DNA of 57,818 bases, from contig JAETOL010000026.1 of assembly GCA_021771755.1 (NCBI GenBank), forward strand, positions 1 to 57,818, given 5' to 3'. Shown piece after piece: positions 49,045-56,644 of this stretch. How positions within the stretch are numbered: the stretch's first letter is position 1; each line of letters opens with the position of its first letter. The stretch is from Lachnospiraceae bacterium (GTDB lineage: Bacteria > Bacillota > Clostridia > Lachnospirales > Lachnospiraceae). A program made the position numbers and the translations under genes. A model generated the notes under the pieces. The model was not told the DNA's origin and searched no databases. It saw nothing but the letters and a program-made list of their open reading frames with translations.

Positions 49045-50772
49045 TTATTCCGTATAGGTATTTCCGTTTTCATCTGTCCAGGTTCCATCCCCATTGTCAG
49101 TATAGCCTACGCCATTTGCATCGCGGTAAAAATAATCCCCGTTTGTGGTTTCTTTTATATCGACGGTGCCGTTGCTGCCCTGGAGCTCATGCTGCCCCAG
49201 CTGGATTCCGAAATAGTAATCTTCATCGTTCCAGGTATGGTAGGAATTTCCATTGGCATCTGCCCAGGTTCCCTCTCCCTGATAACTGTATTGGGTTCCG
49301 TAATCGTCGGAATAGGTTCCGTCTCCGTTATCATAAAGGACTCTGGATTCGTCCTCGTCCTCACCTGGTGCTACAATTGATGCTACACCGGAAGCATTAC
49401 TGAATCCACTGGTGTACGGCACGCCTTCTGGAAGAGTGTCATAATTTGATACAGACCCGTCACTGTCAGAATCACTGTCATAGTCTGTGGCTCCGCTTAC
49501 CTGTCCACTATTTTCTATAAGGGATTCAGGAGTTATTTCTGTCTCTGCATTTTCTGCTGCGGCATTCTCTGTCGGGTTCTCTTCAATCGGGGGCGCTGTG
49601 GTTTTCTGCATGTTTACCAGTTGAGAAAATGGCGCATAATCCGGTGCGTTCTTTTCTTCTGAATCTGTATTCTTTTCCAGAGCAGTTTTTTCTGTATTCA
49701 CTGGTACTGCGGTTGTTCCGGCAGAAACATTAAATACCAGGTTACCGCCTGCAAGGAGCGCCGTTACAAGAATTCCCGGCAGGATTCCTCTGCGAAGCTT
49801 CCGCAGGTTCACCATATACAGGATTCTGTCCTTAAACACCATCCCGCTGTCATTGAGGCTTGCCGTCACATAGGGGATCTGATTTTCCATGGCTACTGTC
49901 CGAAGAAGTAGTTGTCTGTAAAGCCTGTGGTCTTTTTTGGTTACCCGGTTCACAACTGCTGTGTCACACAGATTCTCAATATCCTTATCCGCTTCTTTCA
50001 GCATAATAAGAAGGAATGGATTGAACCAGTATATTGATGCGCAGACTCGAAGAAGCATCTTATACCAGAGATCCCGGTGACAATAATGGGTAAGTTCATG
50101 ATAAAAAACAAGTTTCCTTTCCTCTGCTGAATATCCGGTTGCAGGAAGATACAGCTTTGTATGAAAAAGTCCTGCAAGAAGCGGTGTGGTAAGACCTGCA
50201 TTTCGCCTTAGTTCCGGCATTTTTCGTACATGCTTCCTTCGACACGCCTCTCTGTACATCTGAATACTCACCGGATCACTGACCTGAATACTCATCCGTT
50301 TCAGATTCCTCATGGAAAGATAATATGACAGCAGTTCGCCTGCCAGTTTAAGCGCTGCCACGCTCAGCCAGATTACTGTAACAATTACAGCTGCAATTCT
50401 TGTCCATTTACCTGACTCATAGGTGATATATCCTTTTGGAGCTGAGCCCCCGGTCTGACTTTCCATATTATTGCTCACAGACGGCACAGCTTCTGTCAGC
50501 TGCTGACTCTCCTTGGGTCTGACAGCATGATTCTCTGTCTTCGGATCTTGTGCCTCCAAATGACTGCTTCTCTGCACTTTAAAATTTACCAGTGACAGAG
50601 TTGATGGCAGCTGTATTGGAATCATAAGACTGATTGTTACAAACAGCCAGGTAAAATATTTCCATCTGGCAGATACTTTACCTTTCGATAAAGCCGCAAA
50701 CACTTTGACCAGCAAGATTACAACTGCTGCAATAATATTCAGTTTCAGAATATGCAGAACAAAAACTTCCAT
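49045..50772 (-). CDS. BlaR1/MecR1-type M56 sensor protease with C-terminal NGDGTW-repeat domain
   Basis: 575 residues. Four membrane segments (about 8-28, 38-58, 125-150, 328-350) embed an M56 zinc protease: HELTH at 225-229, with the further glutamate in DIENLCD (residue 266). BlaR1 and MecR1 then have an extracellular penicillin-binding domain. Here the outside part is a Ser/Glu/Asn-rich linker (about 355-470, with an Asp-Ser run at 430-440) and a terminal domain (477-575) built on YDNGDGTYSDD, ADANGNSY and YTDNGDGTWTDENGN units. That domain matches the C-terminus of the secreted protein encoded first in this cluster. It probably senses an envelope or ligand signal and inactivates the BlaI-type repressor next door. 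Confidence 0.85.
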   Translation of the reverse strand: MEVFVLHILKLNIIAAVVILLVKVFAALSKGKVSARWKYFTWLFVTISLMIPIQLPSTLSLVNFKVQRSSHLEAQDPKTENHAVRPKESQQLTEAVPSVSNNMESQTGGSAPKGYITYESGKWTRIAAVIVTVIWLSVAALKLAGELLSYYLSMRNLKRMSIQVSDPVSIQMYREACRRKHVRKMPELRRNAGLTTPLLAGLFHTKLYLPATGYSAEERKLVFYHELTHYCHRDLWYKMLLRVCASIYWFNPFLLIMLKEADKDIENLCDTAVVNRVTKKDHRLYRQLLLRTVAMENQIPYVTASLNDSGMVFKDRILYMVNLRKLRRGILPGILVTALLAGGNLVFNVSAGTTAVPVNTEKTALEKNTDSEEKNAPDYAPFSQLVNMQKTTAPPIEENPTENAAAENAETEITPESLIENSGQVSGATDYDSDSDSDGSVSNYDTLPEGVPYTSGFSNASGVASIVAPGEDEDESRVLYDNGDGTYSDDYGTQYSYQGEGTWADANGNSYHTWNDEDYYFGIQLGQHELQGSNGTVDIKETTNGDYFYRDANGVGYTDNGDGTWTDENGNTYTE

Positions 50773-50778
50773 AATTCG

Positions 50779-51168
50779 CTATTCCTCCCTGTCCTCCAGT
50801 TCCCTGAGAAAATTACTGAGATCCTGGATTTCTTCTGAACTGATCTTTTTTCCATGATATAGTGTTGTTACAAATTTTTTCAGTGAATTTCCATAAAGTT
50901 TTTCAAGAAGACTCTGACTTTCATGGGTCTGATAATCCGACTGCGAAACCAGTGGTGTATATAGATTCATTTTTCCCTGTTTCGTCACTTTTACAAAATT
51001 TTTGTTCTCCAGTCTGGTCAGTAACGACAGGATCGTTGTTGACGCAAGCTTTTTCTTCGTATTGATTACTTTTTCAATCTCCGGTCTGGTCATTGGAGGA
51101 GTGCCATTCCAAAGAACAAGCATAATATCCAGTTCTGATTCGGGTAGTCTCTGATATGTTTTTTTCAC
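50779..51168 (-). CDS. BlaI/MecI-type transcriptional repressor
   Basis: A 129-residue BlaI/MecI winged-helix repressor: ESELDIMLVLWNG start, TRPEIEKVI, the recognition helix STTILSLLTRLENKNFV, the wing KQGKMNLYTPLVS and a C-terminal dimerisation helix region. In known systems BlaR1 triggers cleavage in this last region; the equivalent here is around LKKFVTTL. The start is GTG 51168 with GGAGGG upstream. It ends six bases before the M56 gene. Its likely targets are the three TACA-NN-TGTA boxes at 52233-52310 ahead of the secreted-protein gene. Confidence 0.9.
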   Translation of the reverse strand: MKKTYQRLPESELDIMLVLWNGTPPMTRPEIEKVINTKKKLASTTILSLLTRLENKNFVKVTKQGKMNLYTPLVSQSDYQTHESQSLLEKLYGNSLKKFVTTLYHGKKISSEEIQDLSNFLRELEDREE

Positions 51169-51323
51169 CTTTTTTCAGCCCTCCTGTTACATATTCTCTA
51201 TAAATCCAGTATTCGTTGTACTGGGAATAATTTTCTGATAATTTTATTTTACCATGATTTACGGAAATAACAAGGACTTCTGCATATTTTACAGAAGCCC
51301 TTTGTTTCAGCTGCTGACCGCTG
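51169..51323 (-). other. Intergenic region between the secreted-protein gene and blaI-like gene
   Basis: It holds a hairpin at 51271-51302 and, on the minus strand, the dyad CCAGTA-N7-TACTGG (forward 51217-51235) just upstream of a TATAGA box. The dyad does not match the TACA-NN-TGTA operators, so separate control of the regulator pair is possible but unproven. Confidence 0.35.
51271..51302 (-). terminator. Hairpin after the secreted-protein gene
   Basis: On the minus strand AAGGGCTTCTG pairs with CAGAAGTCCTT (one G-U pair), followed by GTTATTT. It is probably a partial terminator, letting some transcription reach the repressor and sensor genes. Confidence 0.5.
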
Positions 51324-52208
51324 TCAGTCTATCTCCGTATAACTGCTGCCGTTTTCATCGTACCATGTCCCGTCTCCATTGTTGGTAAATCCGGTGCCGT
51401 TTTCATCGGCGAAATAGTAATCGCCATTTGTAGTCTGGGTAACCGTTACAGTATTGCCCTCCACATCCTGAAGATGGTGCTGTTCCAGCGGATATCCCAT
51501 ATGATGTGTAGCATCATTCAGAGCTGAATACGTATTTCCGTTTTCGTCCGTATAGGTTTCATCCCCATTATCGGTATATTTCATTCCATCATCTCCACGA
51601 TATTCATAAGAGTAGTCTTCGTAAAGAATATAATTGATTTCAATTGTATTTCCATTACTGTCAGTTAATGTCATAGGCGTAGTAGAAATAACAGCCAAAT
51701 CATCACTGTTATCTTCGGAATTTGAAGAATTATTTTCTTCTGTATCGGAAGAATTTGAATCTTCCTCTGACTGCTGAACGGAAGCATCAGAATTTCCTGC
51801 TGCATTTTCCTCTGTCTGTCTGGTAAAAGATGGGTTTCCAGGGTAGGAGATATATTCTATAAATTTCCTGACATCACCTATATCAGCTGCGTCTTTTGCA
51901 TATCCTACTGCCATATACAGGCTGTTTCCTTCTGAATAAATTGTCTGGTAGCAGGCCTCATAAGTGTCGTTGCATTTGGCAATTCCTGTTTTGACATCCT
52001 CCAGCGAATATTTATAAATATTTACATAATCACTTCCATTGGTATAGCTGGCATAAGTACCTTCCGTATCTGCATTCTCCCAGGCAGAACCAGTCGGCGG
52101 CTGCGTATAAAAATCATTATTTCCAGCTGCCATAACAGTTCCTGCTGAAAAAATCCCAAGTGTTGCTGCAGTCATAAGTGTCATAAACTTTGTTGTTCTT
52201 TTCTTCAT
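51324..52208 (-). CDS. Secreted protein sharing its C-terminal domain with the M56 sensor
   Basis: 294 residues. The signal peptide (1-28) ends VMA-AG. A first domain (30-130) contains ANNDFYTQPP-like polar sequence and two cysteines (C79, C86), then a Ser/Asn/Glu-rich linker (131-172). The C-terminal domain (about 200-294) has KYTDNGDETYTDENGNTY, TTNGDYYFADENG and NNGDGTWYDENG. By eye 41 of about 76 aligned positions are identical to residues 500-575 of the M56 sensor. The Asp/Asn/Gly pattern recalls calcium-binding or beta-repeat folds. No cell-wall anchor, so it is released. Its promoter carries three BlaI-type boxes, so it is the probable output gene of the system. Function unknown to me. 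Confidence 0.78.
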   Translation of the reverse strand: MKKRTTKFMTLMTAATLGIFSAGTVMAAGNNDFYTQPPTGSAWENADTEGTYASYTNGSDYVNIYKYSLEDVKTGIAKCNDTYEACYQTIYSEGNSLYMAVGYAKDAADIGDVRKFIEYISYPGNPSFTRQTEENAAGNSDASVQQSEEDSNSSDTEENNSSNSEDNSDDLAVISTTPMTLTDSNGNTIEINYILYEDYSYEYRGDDGMKYTDNGDETYTDENGNTYSALNDATHHMGYPLEQHHLQDVEGNTVTVTQTTNGDYYFADENGTGFTNNGDGTWYDENGSSYTEID

Positions 52209-52232
52209 AGTGGATTCTCCCTGAATTTTATT

Positions 52233-52248
52233 TTCTACATCTGTAGAA
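52233..52248. promoter_or_regulatory. BlaI-type operator 1
   Basis: TTCTACA-TC-TGTAGAA is a perfect 7-bp inverted repeat containing TACA-NN-TGTA, the core bound by BlaI/MecI repressors. It lies just downstream of the transcription start region of the secreted-protein gene. Confidence 0.8.
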
Positions 52249-52257
52249 GTTTATTTT

Positions 52258-52286
52258 ATTCTACATCTGTAGAAGATAAAAGTCAA
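52258..52286 (-). promoter_or_regulatory. Promoter of the secreted-protein gene
   Basis: On the minus strand TTGACT (forward 52281-52286) and TAGAAT (forward 52258-52263) are separated by exactly 17 bases. Operator 2 fills most of the spacer and overlaps the -10 box; the -35 lies in the arm of the large palindrome. Confidence 0.75.
52259..52274. promoter_or_regulatory. BlaI-type operator 2
   Basis: A second exact copy of TTCTACA-TC-TGTAGAA, 26 bases centre to centre from operator 1. It sits between the -35 and -10 boxes, so a bound repressor would block RNA polymerase, as in the staphylococcal bla and mec promoters. Confidence 0.85.
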
Positions 52287-52322
52287 CCATTATTTCTACA
52301 TTTGTAGAAATAATGGTTGACT
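52281..52322. promoter_or_regulatory. 42-bp palindrome: BlaI-type operator 3 and clC terminator
   Basis: Arms 52281-52300 and 52303-52322 are perfect 20-bp reverse complements around TT. The centre, TTTCTACA-TT-TGTAGAAA (52293-52310), is a third TACA-NN-TGTA box. On the minus strand the hairpin is followed by TTTATCTT, so it can also end clC transcripts. It additionally supplies the -35 of the secreted-protein gene. Confidence 0.75.
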
Positions 52323-52385: not shown

Positions 52386-53678
52386 TTACTTTGTCTGGCG
52401 ATTGATATATTTCGCCTTATATTTGGAGTATACGATGGTCTGATCTTTGTACAGACCATAATAGCCGGATACGGCATAGCTGACCACCACGGCAATCAGA
52501 TAAAAAGATACACCCTCAAATCCAAACAGCTCAAAGGCAATAAGGATAGAGGTAATGGGGCAGTTGGTCACACCGCAGAACAGAGCGGCCATCCCGGAAG
52601 CGGCACAGAGAGAAGGAGAAAGTCCCACAAGCTGCCCCATGACACAGCCGAAGGTGGCACCGATACAGAAAGAGGGAACGATCTCGCCGCCTCGGAAGCC
52701 TGCTTTCATAGTAATGGCTGTAAGAAGCAGCTTCCAGAAAAAATCGAAAGGACGGGCCTGTCCTTCTTCTACAGCTAACTGGATCAGTTCATTTCCTGCG
52801 CCCATGAAATCCTTTGTCTGAAGAAGGAGGGTGATCAGGATCAGAGCGGCAGAGGCGACAAGGATCCTGAAATAAGGATTTTTCAGAAAACGCTTATAAA
52901 AATCTCCTATGCCTTTCAGGGTTACACAAAACAGAATACTGACAAGTCCGCAGCCCACAGCCACAAGAAGCATTTTTAAGCCGGTAAAAGCGGTCAGCTC
53001 CGGGATACCGTATACATGGAAGCTTTCCGGGTGTATGCCGATGCCGGCGGCAAATTTAGCTGCAATCAGAGAGGAAATCACACAGGGAAGCAGGGCGGCA
53101 TAGTACATGATCCCTACGCTGACGACCTCCAGAGAAAAAACGGCGGCAGCCATGGGAGTTCCGAAAACAGCAGAAAAAGCGGCGCTCATGCCGCACATAA
53201 TAATCACATGCTGATCCTCTTCGTCCAGATGAAACCAGGAACCAAGCTGATTTCCGATACTGCCCCCAAGCTGAATGGCGGCTCCCTCACGTCCTGCAGA
53301 GCCTCCTGTCAGGTGAGTCAGAAGTGTGGAGACAAAAATCATAGGGGCAGAACGGAGACGGATATTATCCTGGGAACGAATGGCAGAAAGAACCTGATTG
53401 GTGCCGCCGTCGTCTTTTCCGAATTTCTGGTAAAGGAATACAATGCATAAGCCTGCAATGGGAAGCAGAAGAAAGACCTGGAGATTTTCCATGCGGAACA
53501 GGGTGACCGTCTTCAGTGCATGAGCAAAAATACTGCTTACCGCGCCTACGACCAGCCCGGTGATAACAGCCAGAGCCAGCCACTTAAGAAGATGTACCGT
53601 GTACTTCCATATCTGATTCCAATAGAAAAGGACCCTATCCAGTCCTTTTTTATCCTGTATGTTCTGTTGTGTATCCAT
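52386..53678 (-). CDS. ClC-family anion channel/antiporter
   Basis: 430 residues with the ClC fold. The second signature GSAGREGAAIQLGG keeps the gating glutamate (REG), and the third, KAGFRGGEIVPSF, is present. The first signature, GSGIPE in chloride antiporters, is replaced by DDGGTNQVL, as in the branch that includes fluoride-specific ClC proteins. It could thus be a Cl-/H+ or F-/H+ antiporter. I saw no fluoride riboswitch upstream. ATG 53678 follows AAGGGGGAG. It lies downstream of copA on the same strand, separated by a strong GC-rich hairpin. Confidence 0.85.
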   Translation of the reverse strand: MDTQQNIQDKKGLDRVLFYWNQIWKYTVHLLKWLALAVITGLVVGAVSSIFAHALKTVTLFRMENLQVFLLLPIAGLCIVFLYQKFGKDDGGTNQVLSAIRSQDNIRLRSAPMIFVSTLLTHLTGGSAGREGAAIQLGGSIGNQLGSWFHLDEEDQHVIIMCGMSAAFSAVFGTPMAAAVFSLEVVSVGIMYYAALLPCVISSLIAAKFAAGIGIHPESFHVYGIPELTAFTGLKMLLVAVGCGLVSILFCVTLKGIGDFYKRFLKNPYFRILVASAALILITLLLQTKDFMGAGNELIQLAVEEGQARPFDFFWKLLLTAITMKAGFRGGEIVPSFCIGATFGCVMGQLVGLSPSLCAASGMAALFCGVTNCPITSILIAFELFGFEGVSFYLIAVVVSYAVSGYYGLYKDQTIVYSKYKAKYINRQTK

Positions 53679-53710
53679 GATTTCTCCCCCTTATGTGTCA
53701 GAATAAAGTC

Positions 53711-53745
53711 CGGCGGTCGGGAATGATCCTCAGTCCCGGCCGCCG
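53711..53745. terminator. GC-rich hairpin between copA and clC
   Basis: CGGCGGTCGGGA (53711-53722) pairs with TCCCGGCCGCCG (53734-53745) with one G-T pair. On the minus strand, the direction of copA, it is followed by GACTTTATT, so termination may be incomplete. Confidence 0.65.
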
Positions 53746-53753
53746 TTTCTGAC

Positions 53754-53972
53754 TTATTCCTGTGTAATTCCGGTTACTTCATATCCTGCGTTTTTGATTA
53801 CTTCGCGGATCTTATCCTCGTCTACACGCTCCGGCGCTGTAAAGACAGTCGTCTTTTTTTCGTGGGAGGAAACAACATCCTCTGCCTGAAAAGCGGCTTT
53901 GACAGCTTCGTTTACATGAGCCTCACAGTGGGGGCACATCATACCTTCTACATTTACAGTGATCTTTACCAT
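53754..53972 (-). CDS. Internal CopZ-like copper chaperone reading frame within copA
   Basis: Inside the 3' end of copA an ATG (minus strand, 53972) in the same frame is preceded by AAAAGGAGA at eight bases, a ribosome site as good as those of real genes here. Starting there gives a complete 72-residue heavy-metal-associated protein with the metal motif MCPHC, the size of CopZ. The preceding linker ([14 protein letters not shown]) is just the translated leader. A separate copZ gene seems to have lost the stop codon ahead of it. Both a fused and a free chaperone may be produced. Confidence 0.55.
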
Positions 53973-56315
53973 AGTCTGATTCTCCTTTTCATTCTTATTT
54001 TCATTATAAGGGTTTTCTGTGTCAATGGAAACCATTTGTTTGATTTTTTTGTCTTTTGAGGCATCATGGATCTTAAAAAGATTCAGCCGCAGGGCATTTG
54101 TTACCACGCAGAAGCTGGAAAGGCTCATTGCCGCAGCCCCGAACATAGGATTCAGCGTCCAGCCGAAAATGGGGATCCACACACCTGCGGCAAGGGGGAT
54201 GCCGATGATGTTGTAGAAAAATGCCCAGAAAAGATTTTCGTGGATACTGCGCAGGGTAGCCCGGCTTAAACGGATGGCGGCAGGAACATCGCTGAGCCGG
54301 CTTTTCATCAGAACTACATCTGCCGCGTCTATGGCAATGTCTGTTCCGGCGCCGATGGCAATGCCGATATCTGCCCTGGTAAGAGCCGGCGCATCATTGA
54401 TCCCGTCTCCGACCATGGCAACCTTGCCTTTTTCTTTGAGGGAGCGGATCACACTTTCCTTTCCGTCCGGAAGGACTCCGGCGATCACCTGATCCACGCC
54501 TGCCTGCCTGCCGATGGCGTTGGCGGTTTTCTCATTATCGCCGGTAAGCATCACAACCCGGATGCCCATATTCTGGAGCTCCTTTACTGCCCGGGGACTG
54601 TCTTCCTTAATCACATCCGCAACAGCAATGATACCTGCCAGCTGGTTTCCTCTGGCAAAGAGAAGGGGCGTTTTTCCCTGCTCTGCCAGGTCCTCGGCTT
54701 TTTTGCGAAGAGAGGTGGGAACTGTTACACGGCTGCTGATAAATTTCATATTTCCTCCGGTAAGTGTTTCTCCGTTTACTTTCCCGGAAAGCCCATTGCC
54801 CGGAAGCGCCTGGAAATCTTCTGCGTCAGCGGCAGTAAGAGACAGGGCTTCTGCTTTTTTCAGGACAGCTCTGGCAAGAGGATGCTCGCTTTTTTTCTCA
54901 AGGGAAAGAGCAAGGGTGAGAAGCTCTTTTTCGGTAAATCCTTCAGCTGGATGGATATCGGTCACTTCCGGCTGACCGCTGGTGATCGTGCCTGTTTTAT
55001 CAAGGGCAACGATCTGAACTCTGCCTGTTTCTTCCAGAGAAACGGCGGTTTTAAACAGGATCCCATGTTTGGCGCCCATTCCGTTGCCAACCATGATGGC
55101 TACCGGGGTGGCAAGTCCAAGGGCGCAGGGACAGCTGATTACCAGAACAGAGATTCCTCTTGCAAGGGCATAGCCGAAGGTCTGTCCGGCAAGCAGCCAT
55201 ACAAGGGTGGTGATCACGGCGATGGCAATCACAGCCGGAACAAAGATTCCGGAAACTTTGTCGGCGATTTTTGCGATGGGAGCCTTGGTAGCGGCTGCGT
55301 CGCTGACCATTTTAATGATCTGGGAAAGGGTGGTATCCTCGCCTACATGAGTGGCCTCACAGCGGATGAAGCCGGACTGGTTTACTGTAGCTGCGGAAAC
55401 CGTATCTCCGGCAGCCTTGTCAACGGGGATGCTTTCTCCTGTAAGAGCGGATTCATTTACCGCGCTGGAGCCTTCCAGAACAATCCCGTCTACCGGGATA
55501 TTTTCTCCGGGGCGGACAACGAAGATATCTCCTTTTCTTACCTGTTCAATGGGAACCGTGGTTTCCTGCCCGCTGCGGATCACCACGGCTGTTTTCGGCG
55601 CCAGCTTCATGAGACTTTTCAGGGCGTCGGTGGTTTTTCCCTTGGAACGGGCTTCCAGCATTTTTCCTACAGTAATAAGAGTCAGGATCATGGCGGCGGA
55701 CTCAAAATAAAAGTCCATCATATAATCCATGACAGCGTCCATGTTGCCGTCCACCTGAGCCCTTGTCATGGCAAACAGCACATACACGCTCCATACAAAG
55801 GACGCCATGGAGCCAAGGGCTACCAGGGTATCCATGTTGGGGGCTTTGTGCCAGAGGCTCTTAAAGCCGCTGATAAAAAACTTCTGGTTGATGACCATGA
55901 CAATACCTGCCAGAAGCAGCTGGAGAAGCCCCATGGCAATGTGATTATCCTCAAACCAGGCGGGAATCGGCCATCCCCACATCATATGTCCCATGGAAAA
56001 GTACATCAGTACCAGCAGAAAGCCAACAGATGCGATCAGACGTTTCTTAAGCACAGGTGTTTCGTGGTCGGCCAGGGCTTCCGCAGCTTCGGAAGGGGAT
56101 ACCTTCTGACCGGCAGAGCCTTTTACAGAAGCGCCGTAGCCTGCTTCCTCCACTGCAGCGATGATATCTGCCTCAGAAGCAGTTCCTTCCACACCCATGG
56201 AGTTGGTGAGGAGGCTTACGGAGCAGGAAGTGACTCCCGGCACATGAGAGACTGCTTTTTCTACCCGGGAGCTGCAGGCTGCACAGCTCATTCCGGTTAC
56301 ATTATATTGTTCCAT
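53754..56315 (-). CDS. copA: Copper-exporting P1B-type ATPase CopA with C-terminal CopZ fusion
   Basis: 853 residues. The N-terminal heavy-metal domain has [15 protein letters not shown]. Eight membrane helices carry the CPC metal motif in [12 protein letters not shown]. The soluble part has TGES, DKTGTIT with the phosphorylated Asp, SEHPLA (HP motif) and [10 protein letters not shown]. After the last helix a polar linker leads to a second heavy-metal domain, the last 72 residues, with [17 protein letters not shown]. Most CopA proteins end before this. The added part equals a CopZ-type copper chaperone and begins at a Met with its own ribosome site. It is preceded by csoR in an operon and exports Cu(I). 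Confidence 0.93.
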
Positions 56316-56338
56316 TCAGATTCCTCCTTTTCGGATTT

Positions 56339-56644
56339 TTATTTCATCAGCTTCTGCAGAGTTGTCATCAGTTCGTCAACGGTCTCGTCCTTTCCTTCCC
56401 GGATATCCCGGGCTACACAGGTATGGATATGTGCGGAAAGCAGCTCTCTGTTAAAAGCATTTATGGCTGCGTTTACGGCAGCGGACTGGATCAGGATATC
56501 GTTGCAGTAGGTATCGTTTTCTACCATTTTTATGATTCCCCGCACCTGTCCTTCAATACGCTTCATCCGGTTGATAAGCTTTTTCTTCTCTTCCGGAGAA
56601 CGGTGGGTGGATCTGGTGCAGCAGCATGTGGTCTGGTCTGACAT
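56339..56644 (-). CDS. csoR: CsoR-family copper-sensing repressor
   Basis: 101 residues of the CsoR/RcnR (DUF156) all-helical family. The Cu(I) ligands C47, H72 and C76 are in the canonical Cys-x24-His-x3-Cys spacing (TYCNDIL, AHIHTC). The start helix is INRMKRIEGQVRGI, which carries DNA-contacting basic residues. A cysteine-rich N-terminus (TTCCCT) is unusual and may add metal binding. It heads the csoR-copA operon and very likely binds the two TACC-type boxes in its own promoter, releasing them when copper is bound. Ribosome site AAAGGAGG. Confidence 0.93.
   Translation of the reverse strand: MSDQTTCCCTRSTHRSPEEKKKLINRMKRIEGQVRGIIKMVENDTYCNDILIQSAAVNAAINAFNRELLSAHIHTCVARDIREGKDETVDELMTTLQKLMK

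Follow-up and report, generated by a model that had tools for sequence, protein, structure and literature searches.

A predicted BlaR1/BlaI-type switch of Blautia whose M56 sensor and secreted output protein share a class of C-terminal tail

The window analyzed here is a whole stretch of 57,818 nucleotides from a Lachnospiraceae bacterium (contig JAETOL010000026.1, assembly GCA_021771755.1), a host that we take to be a gut Blautia, so that "genus" in the counts below stands for Blautia. On its minus strand, at positions 49045-52309, lies a cassette of three genes. The first to be transcribed encodes a secreted protein, the second a repressor of the BlaI type and the third an M56 membrane metalloprotease (the sensor). 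The gap between the secreted gene and the repressor gene is 155 bp, and that between the repressor gene and the sensor gene is 6 bp. The window and 12 relatives make up the 13 intact modules referred to throughout. The features of the cassette are as follows:

49045-50772, minus strand: sensor gene, M56 (BlaR1-type) membrane metalloprotease, 575 amino acids
49735-50772, minus strand: sensor residues 1-346, predicted membrane segments and cytoplasmic zinc protease domain
50086-50100, minus strand: HELTH zinc motif, residues 225-229; third-ligand Glu266 in ENLCD
49855-49860, minus strand: predicted sensor self-cleavage site Ser305/Leu306, by alignment to BlaR1 Ser283/Phe284; SLNDS in 13/13 modules
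49342-49734, minus strand: sensor extracellular linker, acidic and of low complexity, residues 347-477; predicted local distance difference test (pLDDT) score mostly <50 over residues 344-446
49048-49341, minus strand: sensor NGDGTW tail, residues 478-575, delimited by BLASTP against the secreted tail (E 3e-19)
50779-51168, minus strand: BlaI/MecI-type repressor gene, 129 amino acids, GTG start; Penicillinase_R, phmmer match to BlaI 1sd4
50860-50865, minus strand: predicted repressor cleavage site Thr102/Leu103, by alignment to BlaI Asn101/Phe102
51324-52208, minus strand: secreted output gene, 294 amino acids
52125-52208, minus strand: Sec-type signal peptide, about residues 1-28, by eye
51831-52109, minus strand: secreted N domain, residues 34-126; weak, tied fold matches to PsbP, MucB/RseB and Tsi3
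51699-51830, minus strand: secreted low-complexity linker, residues 127-170; pLDDT <50 over residues 128-168
51333-51698, minus strand: secreted NGDGTW tail, residues 171-292, a tandem of two hairpin units
52258-52263, minus strand: -10 element TAGAAT of the secreted gene promoter; equal geometry in 13/13 modules
52281-52286, minus strand: -35 element TTGACT of the secreted gene promoter
52233-52248, no strand: predicted operator dyad closest to the secreted gene
52259-52274, no strand: predicted operator dyad covering the -10 element
52294-52309, no strand: predicted operator dyad upstream of the -35 element

A preliminary description made from the sequence alone had read the sensor as an M56 protease with a HELTH motif and four membrane segments, in which an NGDGTW-type end replaces the penicillin-binding domain, and had placed a BlaI-type repressor gene between it and the secreted gene. 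Both readings held. Peptidase_M56 covers residues 8-318 of the sensor (E 9e-45) and is its sole Pfam family above cut-off, and no second M56 protein is encoded in the window's genome. The sensor model has the BlaR1 membrane fold with four membrane helices and an HEXXH zinc metalloprotease motif, and in a Foldseek search of the PDB it matched BlaR1 only. No C-terminal Transpeptidase-like penicillin-binding domain was detected by Pfam, in a search that does detect Transpeptidase in the true family members of the genus, and the NCBIfam model blaR1_generic reached 109 bits against a cut-off of 400, over residues 13-325 (the protease part) only. The repressor carries the Penicillinase_R winged helix (Pfam, E 8e-26) and matched BlaI 1sd4 in phmmer (E 7e-11). 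According to PMC9834060, BlaR1 cleaves itself at Ser283/Phe284 and BlaI is cut at Asn101/Phe102; the aligned equivalents are Ser305/Leu306 in the sensor and Thr102/Leu103 in the repressor, with Leu in the P1' position of both sites in all 13 modules. From this homology we infer the membrane topology, the zinc protease and the repressor cleavage. The linker that follows the protease part varies between about 110 and 200 residues across the modules.

The BlaI-type boxes that had been noted over the secreted gene promoter proved to be three exact TTCTACANNTGTAGAA dyads, at positions 52233, 52259 and 52294. Genome-wide, CTACANNTGTAG occurs at five sites, namely these three and two within coding frames, and the reversed pattern occurs at two; clustered boxes are found in this genome only at the secreted gene promoter. 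All 13 modules share the promoter TTGAC(A/T)-17 bp-TA(G/T)(A/T)AT, in which one dyad covers the -10 element and the next follows at a distance of 26 bp (at least two dyads, at most one mismatch), and seven of them have a third dyad 35-36 bp upstream (at most one mismatch). A dyad also precedes the repressor gene in 11/13 modules, the window and the module of genome G336 having none; at 51169-51323, before the repressor gene, the window bears an inverted CCAGTA...TACTGG instead. The TACA/TGTA dyads at the target promoter are the predicted repressor operators, as looked for in a BlaI/MecI-type system. Taken together, the cassette very probably forms a BlaR1/BlaI-type circuit with a new sensor tail.

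That tail is shared with the output. Aligned with residues 194-292 of the secreted protein, the C-terminal 98 residues of the sensor are identical at 47/99 positions (BLASTP, E 3e-19), where an earlier count by eye had given 41 in about 76. The NGDGTW tail consists of two tandem units of beta-hairpin type. Neither the tail nor the secreted protein has a Pfam family above cut-off, and for the secreted protein there is none in NCBIfam either; by these two collections, it is neither a beta-lactamase nor a resistant penicillin-binding protein (PBP).

As controls, we compared 41 distinct non-module M56 proteins of the genus, drawn from 113 M56 matches (19 in loci L086-L102 plus 29 more, minus seven duplicates; many of the added loci had flanks of 1.5 kb only). 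No tail shared with a fetched neighbor was found in 38/41, including all 19 in L086-L102, and the three others shared one weakly. In two of these, L125 (G329:C7) and L042 (G303:C259), Pfam detected an M56 plus Transpeptidase sensor beside a Transpeptidase gene, which in L125 also carries MecA_N and PBP_dimer; the third, L035, looks alike by eye. The similarity between the Transpeptidase domains of sensor and neighbor in L125 and L042 is weak (26-28% over about 100 residues). Taken as a whole, the Blautia locus L125:3997-7934 combines a BlaI-family gene with genes for a MecR1-type sensor and a MecA_N-type PBP. In MecR1-MecA, the fold that contacts the beta-lactam is present in both sensor and output, and both bind beta-lactams. 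Of the arguments by analogy for a common ligand behind a common tail, these MecR1-MecA-type controls give the strongest.

The preliminary description had asked whether the domain recurs in M56 proteins near BlaI genes, and profile searches showed that it does. Across 64 genus genomes, the tail profile was positive in 17, and all 27 strong matches (E <1e-37) were module sensors or secreted proteins, two of them in decayed modules. Beyond this set, two matches fell on the first tail units of module secreted proteins, and three weak ones (E 4e-7 to 4e-4) on other secreted proteins or open reading frames outside the module. Across the family, 5/299 genomes were positive, the three outside the genus weakly (E 2e-8 or worse). 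Searches with the secreted protein found 20/64 genus genomes and 4/299 in the family, weak and tail-only matches included. A scan of 84,980 species genomes returned 12 loci, 11 in Blautia and one in Eubacteriales: nine have all three genes, two are halves of one module split over contigs, and one is a remnant with a sensor and a damaged repressor. The relatives that carry it probably include B. wexlerae, B. glucerasea, B. luti, B. massiliensis and a strain that bears the label B. schinkii, and two scans of viral contigs gave no relative carrying the tails. In the collections searched, the cassette is restricted to Blautia, and neither the 64 genus genomes nor the 12 scanned loci presented the domain as a common tail of unrelated proteins away from BlaI genes. 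Two decayed modules were also seen (L073:4174-6495 and L076:7227-10138); at G360:C41 the repressor frame is damaged and the secreted gene gone, and in G359 the sensor lacks a start and lies beside a gene resembling, by eye, an IS605 OrfB protein.

Tail class was then compared within each module. Sensor and secreted protein have equal tail classes in 12/13 modules, which comprise 11 NGDGTW pairs and one pair, in genome G335, where both proteins have an unrelated tail ("YSWD") with GWYYYDS.SGSYLPW at its end, identical at 41/48 positions. The G335 sensor bears a bacterial SH3 domain besides its YSWD tail. On a 17-row tree of sensor cores, G335 and G336 are mutually nearest (95/99), and on a 29-row tree both fall inside one group of 12 without resolved inner order. 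Among the best 120 of 919 sensors nearest G335 by protease core, 110 end in NGDGTW and eight in YSWD, and two are truncated. Seven YSWD sensors besides that of G335 lie on metagenome contigs (P0242, P0246, P0248, P0249, P0251, P0261 and P0264). Repeated switching of sensor tail class is suggested by four changes, a single change being seen in 0% of bootstrap trees; a single clade for tail class was not rejected by the approximately unbiased (AU) test (p 0.092).

The preliminary description had proposed that sensor and output share a ligand other than a beta-lactam. The common but different tail in G335 and the MecR1-type controls speak for this part, as does the retention of the module in 13 intact genus loci with no conserved flanks beyond those in genome G329, the nearest relative, and one chloride-channel homologue. 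Several observations weigh against it. The module in G336 is mismatched, combining an NGDGTW sensor with a YSWD secreted protein, and since it is kept in this state the tail match is not indispensable. By eye, the YSWD end of that secreted protein is preceded by a stretch resembling one NGDGTW unit. The matched tail swap is one event (G335), and the 11 NGDGTW modules are of common ancestry and hence not independent. The YSWD tail is also found on solo lipoproteins in eight genus genomes, which makes this tail, at least, a reusable surface module. Finally, Leu in the P1' position of the repressor in 13/13 modules departs from a Phe that is nearly invariant in BlaI (PMC9834060); as Leu occupies both cleavage sites, this is a matched change of protease and substrate, as expected of a working pair. 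On balance, given the circuit, we slightly favor that the sensor and secreted tails would meet the same target; for the joint proposal, a proteolytic switch whose sensor and effector recognize one common target, we see an even chance. Its extension to a re-targetable receptor-decoy pair, with a recognition domain on sensor and effector that is exchanged on both when the target changes, is put forward only tentatively.

The solo lipoproteins form a small family ending in YSWD (L163, L164, L165, L166, L167, L168, L169, L170), and are the likely source of the G336 secreted ending, as judged from sequence. Six or more of them have shared neighbors, by eye a TraX-type acyltransferase and a hexapeptide-repeat transferase. 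The window's genome holds a decayed YSWD tail region with one TGA stop (G000:C24:323933-324076, L171), adjoining genes whose counterparts in other genomes lie beside intact YSWD lipoproteins.

These lipoproteins bear on a different explanation, in which the tail is a wall or surface attachment module only, and sensing is done by the extracellular loop between membrane helices 1 and 2, or by SH3 if present. In line with it are the SH3 domain on the G335 sensor, the YSWD tails on solo proteins and the build of the tails from repeated beta-hairpin units; a 398-residue database relative of the secreted protein (P0001) has the whole tail twice in tandem. Yet a general anchor would be expected on many secreted proteins, whereas the window's genome has two NGDGTW copies, both in this module, and the strong genus matches are module proteins without exception; the NGDGTW tail is thus not a general anchor. 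In addition, the YSWD lipoproteins have a lipid anchor of their own (lipobox by eye). We consider tails for attachment alone rather improbable.

Equal tail classes in 12/13 modules would also fit homotypic sensing, an idea of the preliminary description, in which the secreted protein is bound, tail to tail, by the sensor and the cassette gauges its own product outside the cell. However, the window tails are only 48% identical, with synonymous change saturated, within the NGDGTW class a sensor tail resembles that of its own partner no more than those of partners at other loci, and the mismatched G336 pair persists. Such self-recognition is quite unlikely.

In order to see how the tails are kept, we estimated the ratio of nonsynonymous to synonymous change (dN/dS) by domain between the window and four relatives. 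In the sensor, it was 0.05-0.14 for the tail, 0.14-0.23 for the core and 0.30-0.39 for the linker over the four comparisons; in the secreted protein, it was 0.05-0.07 for the N domain, 0.40-0.79 for the linker and 0.06-0.14 for the tail in three comparisons, the fourth being saturated. These ratios are rough because synonymous change is near saturation. By this measure, the tails are evidently under purifying selection and the linkers drift. At identical residues of the G335 tail pair, 20/38 codons are the same, compared to 0.42 expected from codon usage (dS 2.1, dN 0.07), so that the match appears to be held by selection and not to reflect a recent copy. The corresponding counts are 23/47 in the window (0.44 expected) and 53/80 in L071 (0.48 expected), indicating that the tail likeness is old and at the protein level in the window and G335, and younger in L071.

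The same data bear on the possibility that there is no functional link, the tails sharing ancestry through duplication or gene conversion between neighboring genes. The tails are modular, as the near-exact tandem copy in P0001 illustrates; the sensor tails of MSJ-9 and B. wexlerae group with secreted tails on the tail tree, which fits exchange, and their codon identity of 53/80 exceeds expectation. Against this, a single origin of all sensor tails was not rejected (AU p 0.17; 0.11 without G336), both tails are under strong purifying selection, and the G335 pair retains 85% amino-acid identity despite saturated synonymous sites. Nor did the same test establish that the tail was cleanly replaced in the MSJ-9/B. 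wexlerae sensors. The match may have arisen by recombination, yet something maintains it, and we regard a mere shared ancestry as very unlikely.

Returning to the common target, gene content, domain sharing, predicted operators, conservation and tail class matching can be read from the sequences themselves; that the tail binds a target, and that both tails bind the same one, we infer. The switch would then work as follows. The repressor would occupy the dyads over the secreted gene promoter, while a long flexible linker would let the M56 sensor expose its tail to the outside. Once this tail has met its target, the repressor would be cut at Thr102/Leu103 by the cytoplasmic zinc protease, and the secreted protein would be made. 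With a tail of the same class on its own linker, this protein would reach, mask or sequester the common target, and induction would end. The likeliest target would be a component of the wall or surface, or else a protein outside the cell.

Structure prediction of both domains had been proposed in the preliminary description. The models had mean pLDDT values of 66.5 (secreted protein) and 61.3 (sensor) and were built from 19 and 27 sequences, respectively. With the secreted model, Foldseek against the PDB gave nothing at E ≤0.001. Both tail models pick lysozyme-inhibitor folds (MliC/PliC type) and the N domain picks PsbP, MucB/RseB and the muramidase inhibitor Tsi3 (tied), all below the trustworthy level; the tail matches are hints only, owing to the low pLDDT and few sequences. 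We take SGxxY and YxxxTKG to be the MliC/PliC motifs; in loose regular-expression searches of seven module proteins, YxxxTKG was absent and SG..Y strings occurred in three without a conserved place. The ectodomains are strongly acidic (charge -38 in the window sensor, -42 in the secreted protein), and those of other genus M56 proteins are acidic as well. A concrete form of the common-target proposal, in which the target would be a muramidase such as host lysozyme and the acidic secreted protein an inducible inhibitor, is a long shot suggested by the models.

Further matches were set aside. A PDB search with the tail profile gave an Fc-receptor-like protein (E 0.0025, no stretch passing alone) and CofJ (E 0.16), which were not used. 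In P0001, the phage tail-tube C-terminal family PF20608 scored 1.8 bits above cut-off over 33 residues, and was not built on. The N domain is also present in other secreted proteins of the genus without BlaI/M56 matches (L079, L080, L081, L082, L083, L148), some with SH3 and hairpin repeats. A lipoprotein of the window's genome (G000:C88, L122:300-1388) has a weak N-domain match and a NGNGSWVDFDGNTY-like end.

Chloride-channel-like, copper ATPase-like and CsoR-like genes (by eye) adjoin the module in the window (52386-56644). Flanking genes are common only to G329, plus one chloride-channel homologue, which in L071 lies some 1.6 kb downstream of the module, and an operon with these three genes was rejected, as they adjoin the module only in G329. 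The copper ATPase-like and CsoR-like frames (by eye, 53754-56644), a score of 60 bits for the repressor with NCBIfam CopY_TcrY and the core TACANNTGTA, common to CopY and BlaI repressors according to PMC7253601, raise the question of a CopY-like copper switch. CopY/TcrY indeed have the repressor superfamily and this operator core in common with the module. However, the score lies under the cut-off of 122, the copper genes are not conserved neighbors, the module repressor is paired with an M56 protease, and it contains no cysteine at all, whereas CopR-CopY repressors bear Cys-X-Cys motifs (same source). Copper regulation was rejected on the score, the cysteines and the neighbors, and is barely credible.

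In other respects, the cassette resembles BlaR1-BlaI-blaZ and MecR1-MecI-mecA of Staphylococcus, with which it shares the M56 four-helix protease, a BlaI-family repressor gene next to it, a target promoter covered by TACA/TGTA dyads, and aligned cleavage sites. Unlike these, it has a linker and a hairpin tail of no Pfam family instead of the penicillin-binding tail, a secreted, non-enzyme-like output and P1' Leu at both predicted cleavage sites. The genus MecR1/MecA-type pairs (L125, L042) have an M56 sensor, a BlaI-family gene, an output-type gene and a shared domain as well, but theirs is a weakly similar Transpeptidase whose ligand class is known. A sensor domain resembling an output class is also a trait of BlaR1, whose sensor domain is structurally homologous to class D beta-lactamases (PMC5957439). 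In RsiV-SigV of the lysozyme response, similarly, a membrane protein that controls a defense output senses an extracellular protein directly (PMC4183432 and PMC5014341); its proteins are unrelated, and the parallel is one of logic only. That an M56 protein can lack a penicillin-binding sensor was known already, from the M. tuberculosis BlaR1 homologue without a sensor domain described in PMC9834060; the paired tail is new. Among the top-ranked open-literature results, with subscription papers mostly outside them, none described this cassette, or any M56 sensor that has a domain other than a penicillin-binding one in common with its output.

Staphylococci detect penicillin by a BlaR1-type switch, and BlaR1/BlaI is the textbook case of a repressor cleaved, in one step, in answer to an outside signal; the known BlaR1/BlaI inducers are beta-lactams. 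In a genus common in the human gut, the cassette would equip this machinery with another recognition domain. As the output carries the domain of the sensor, the system may hold a built-in clue to its ligand, and the G335/G336 pair makes the need for a match between sensor and effector testable.

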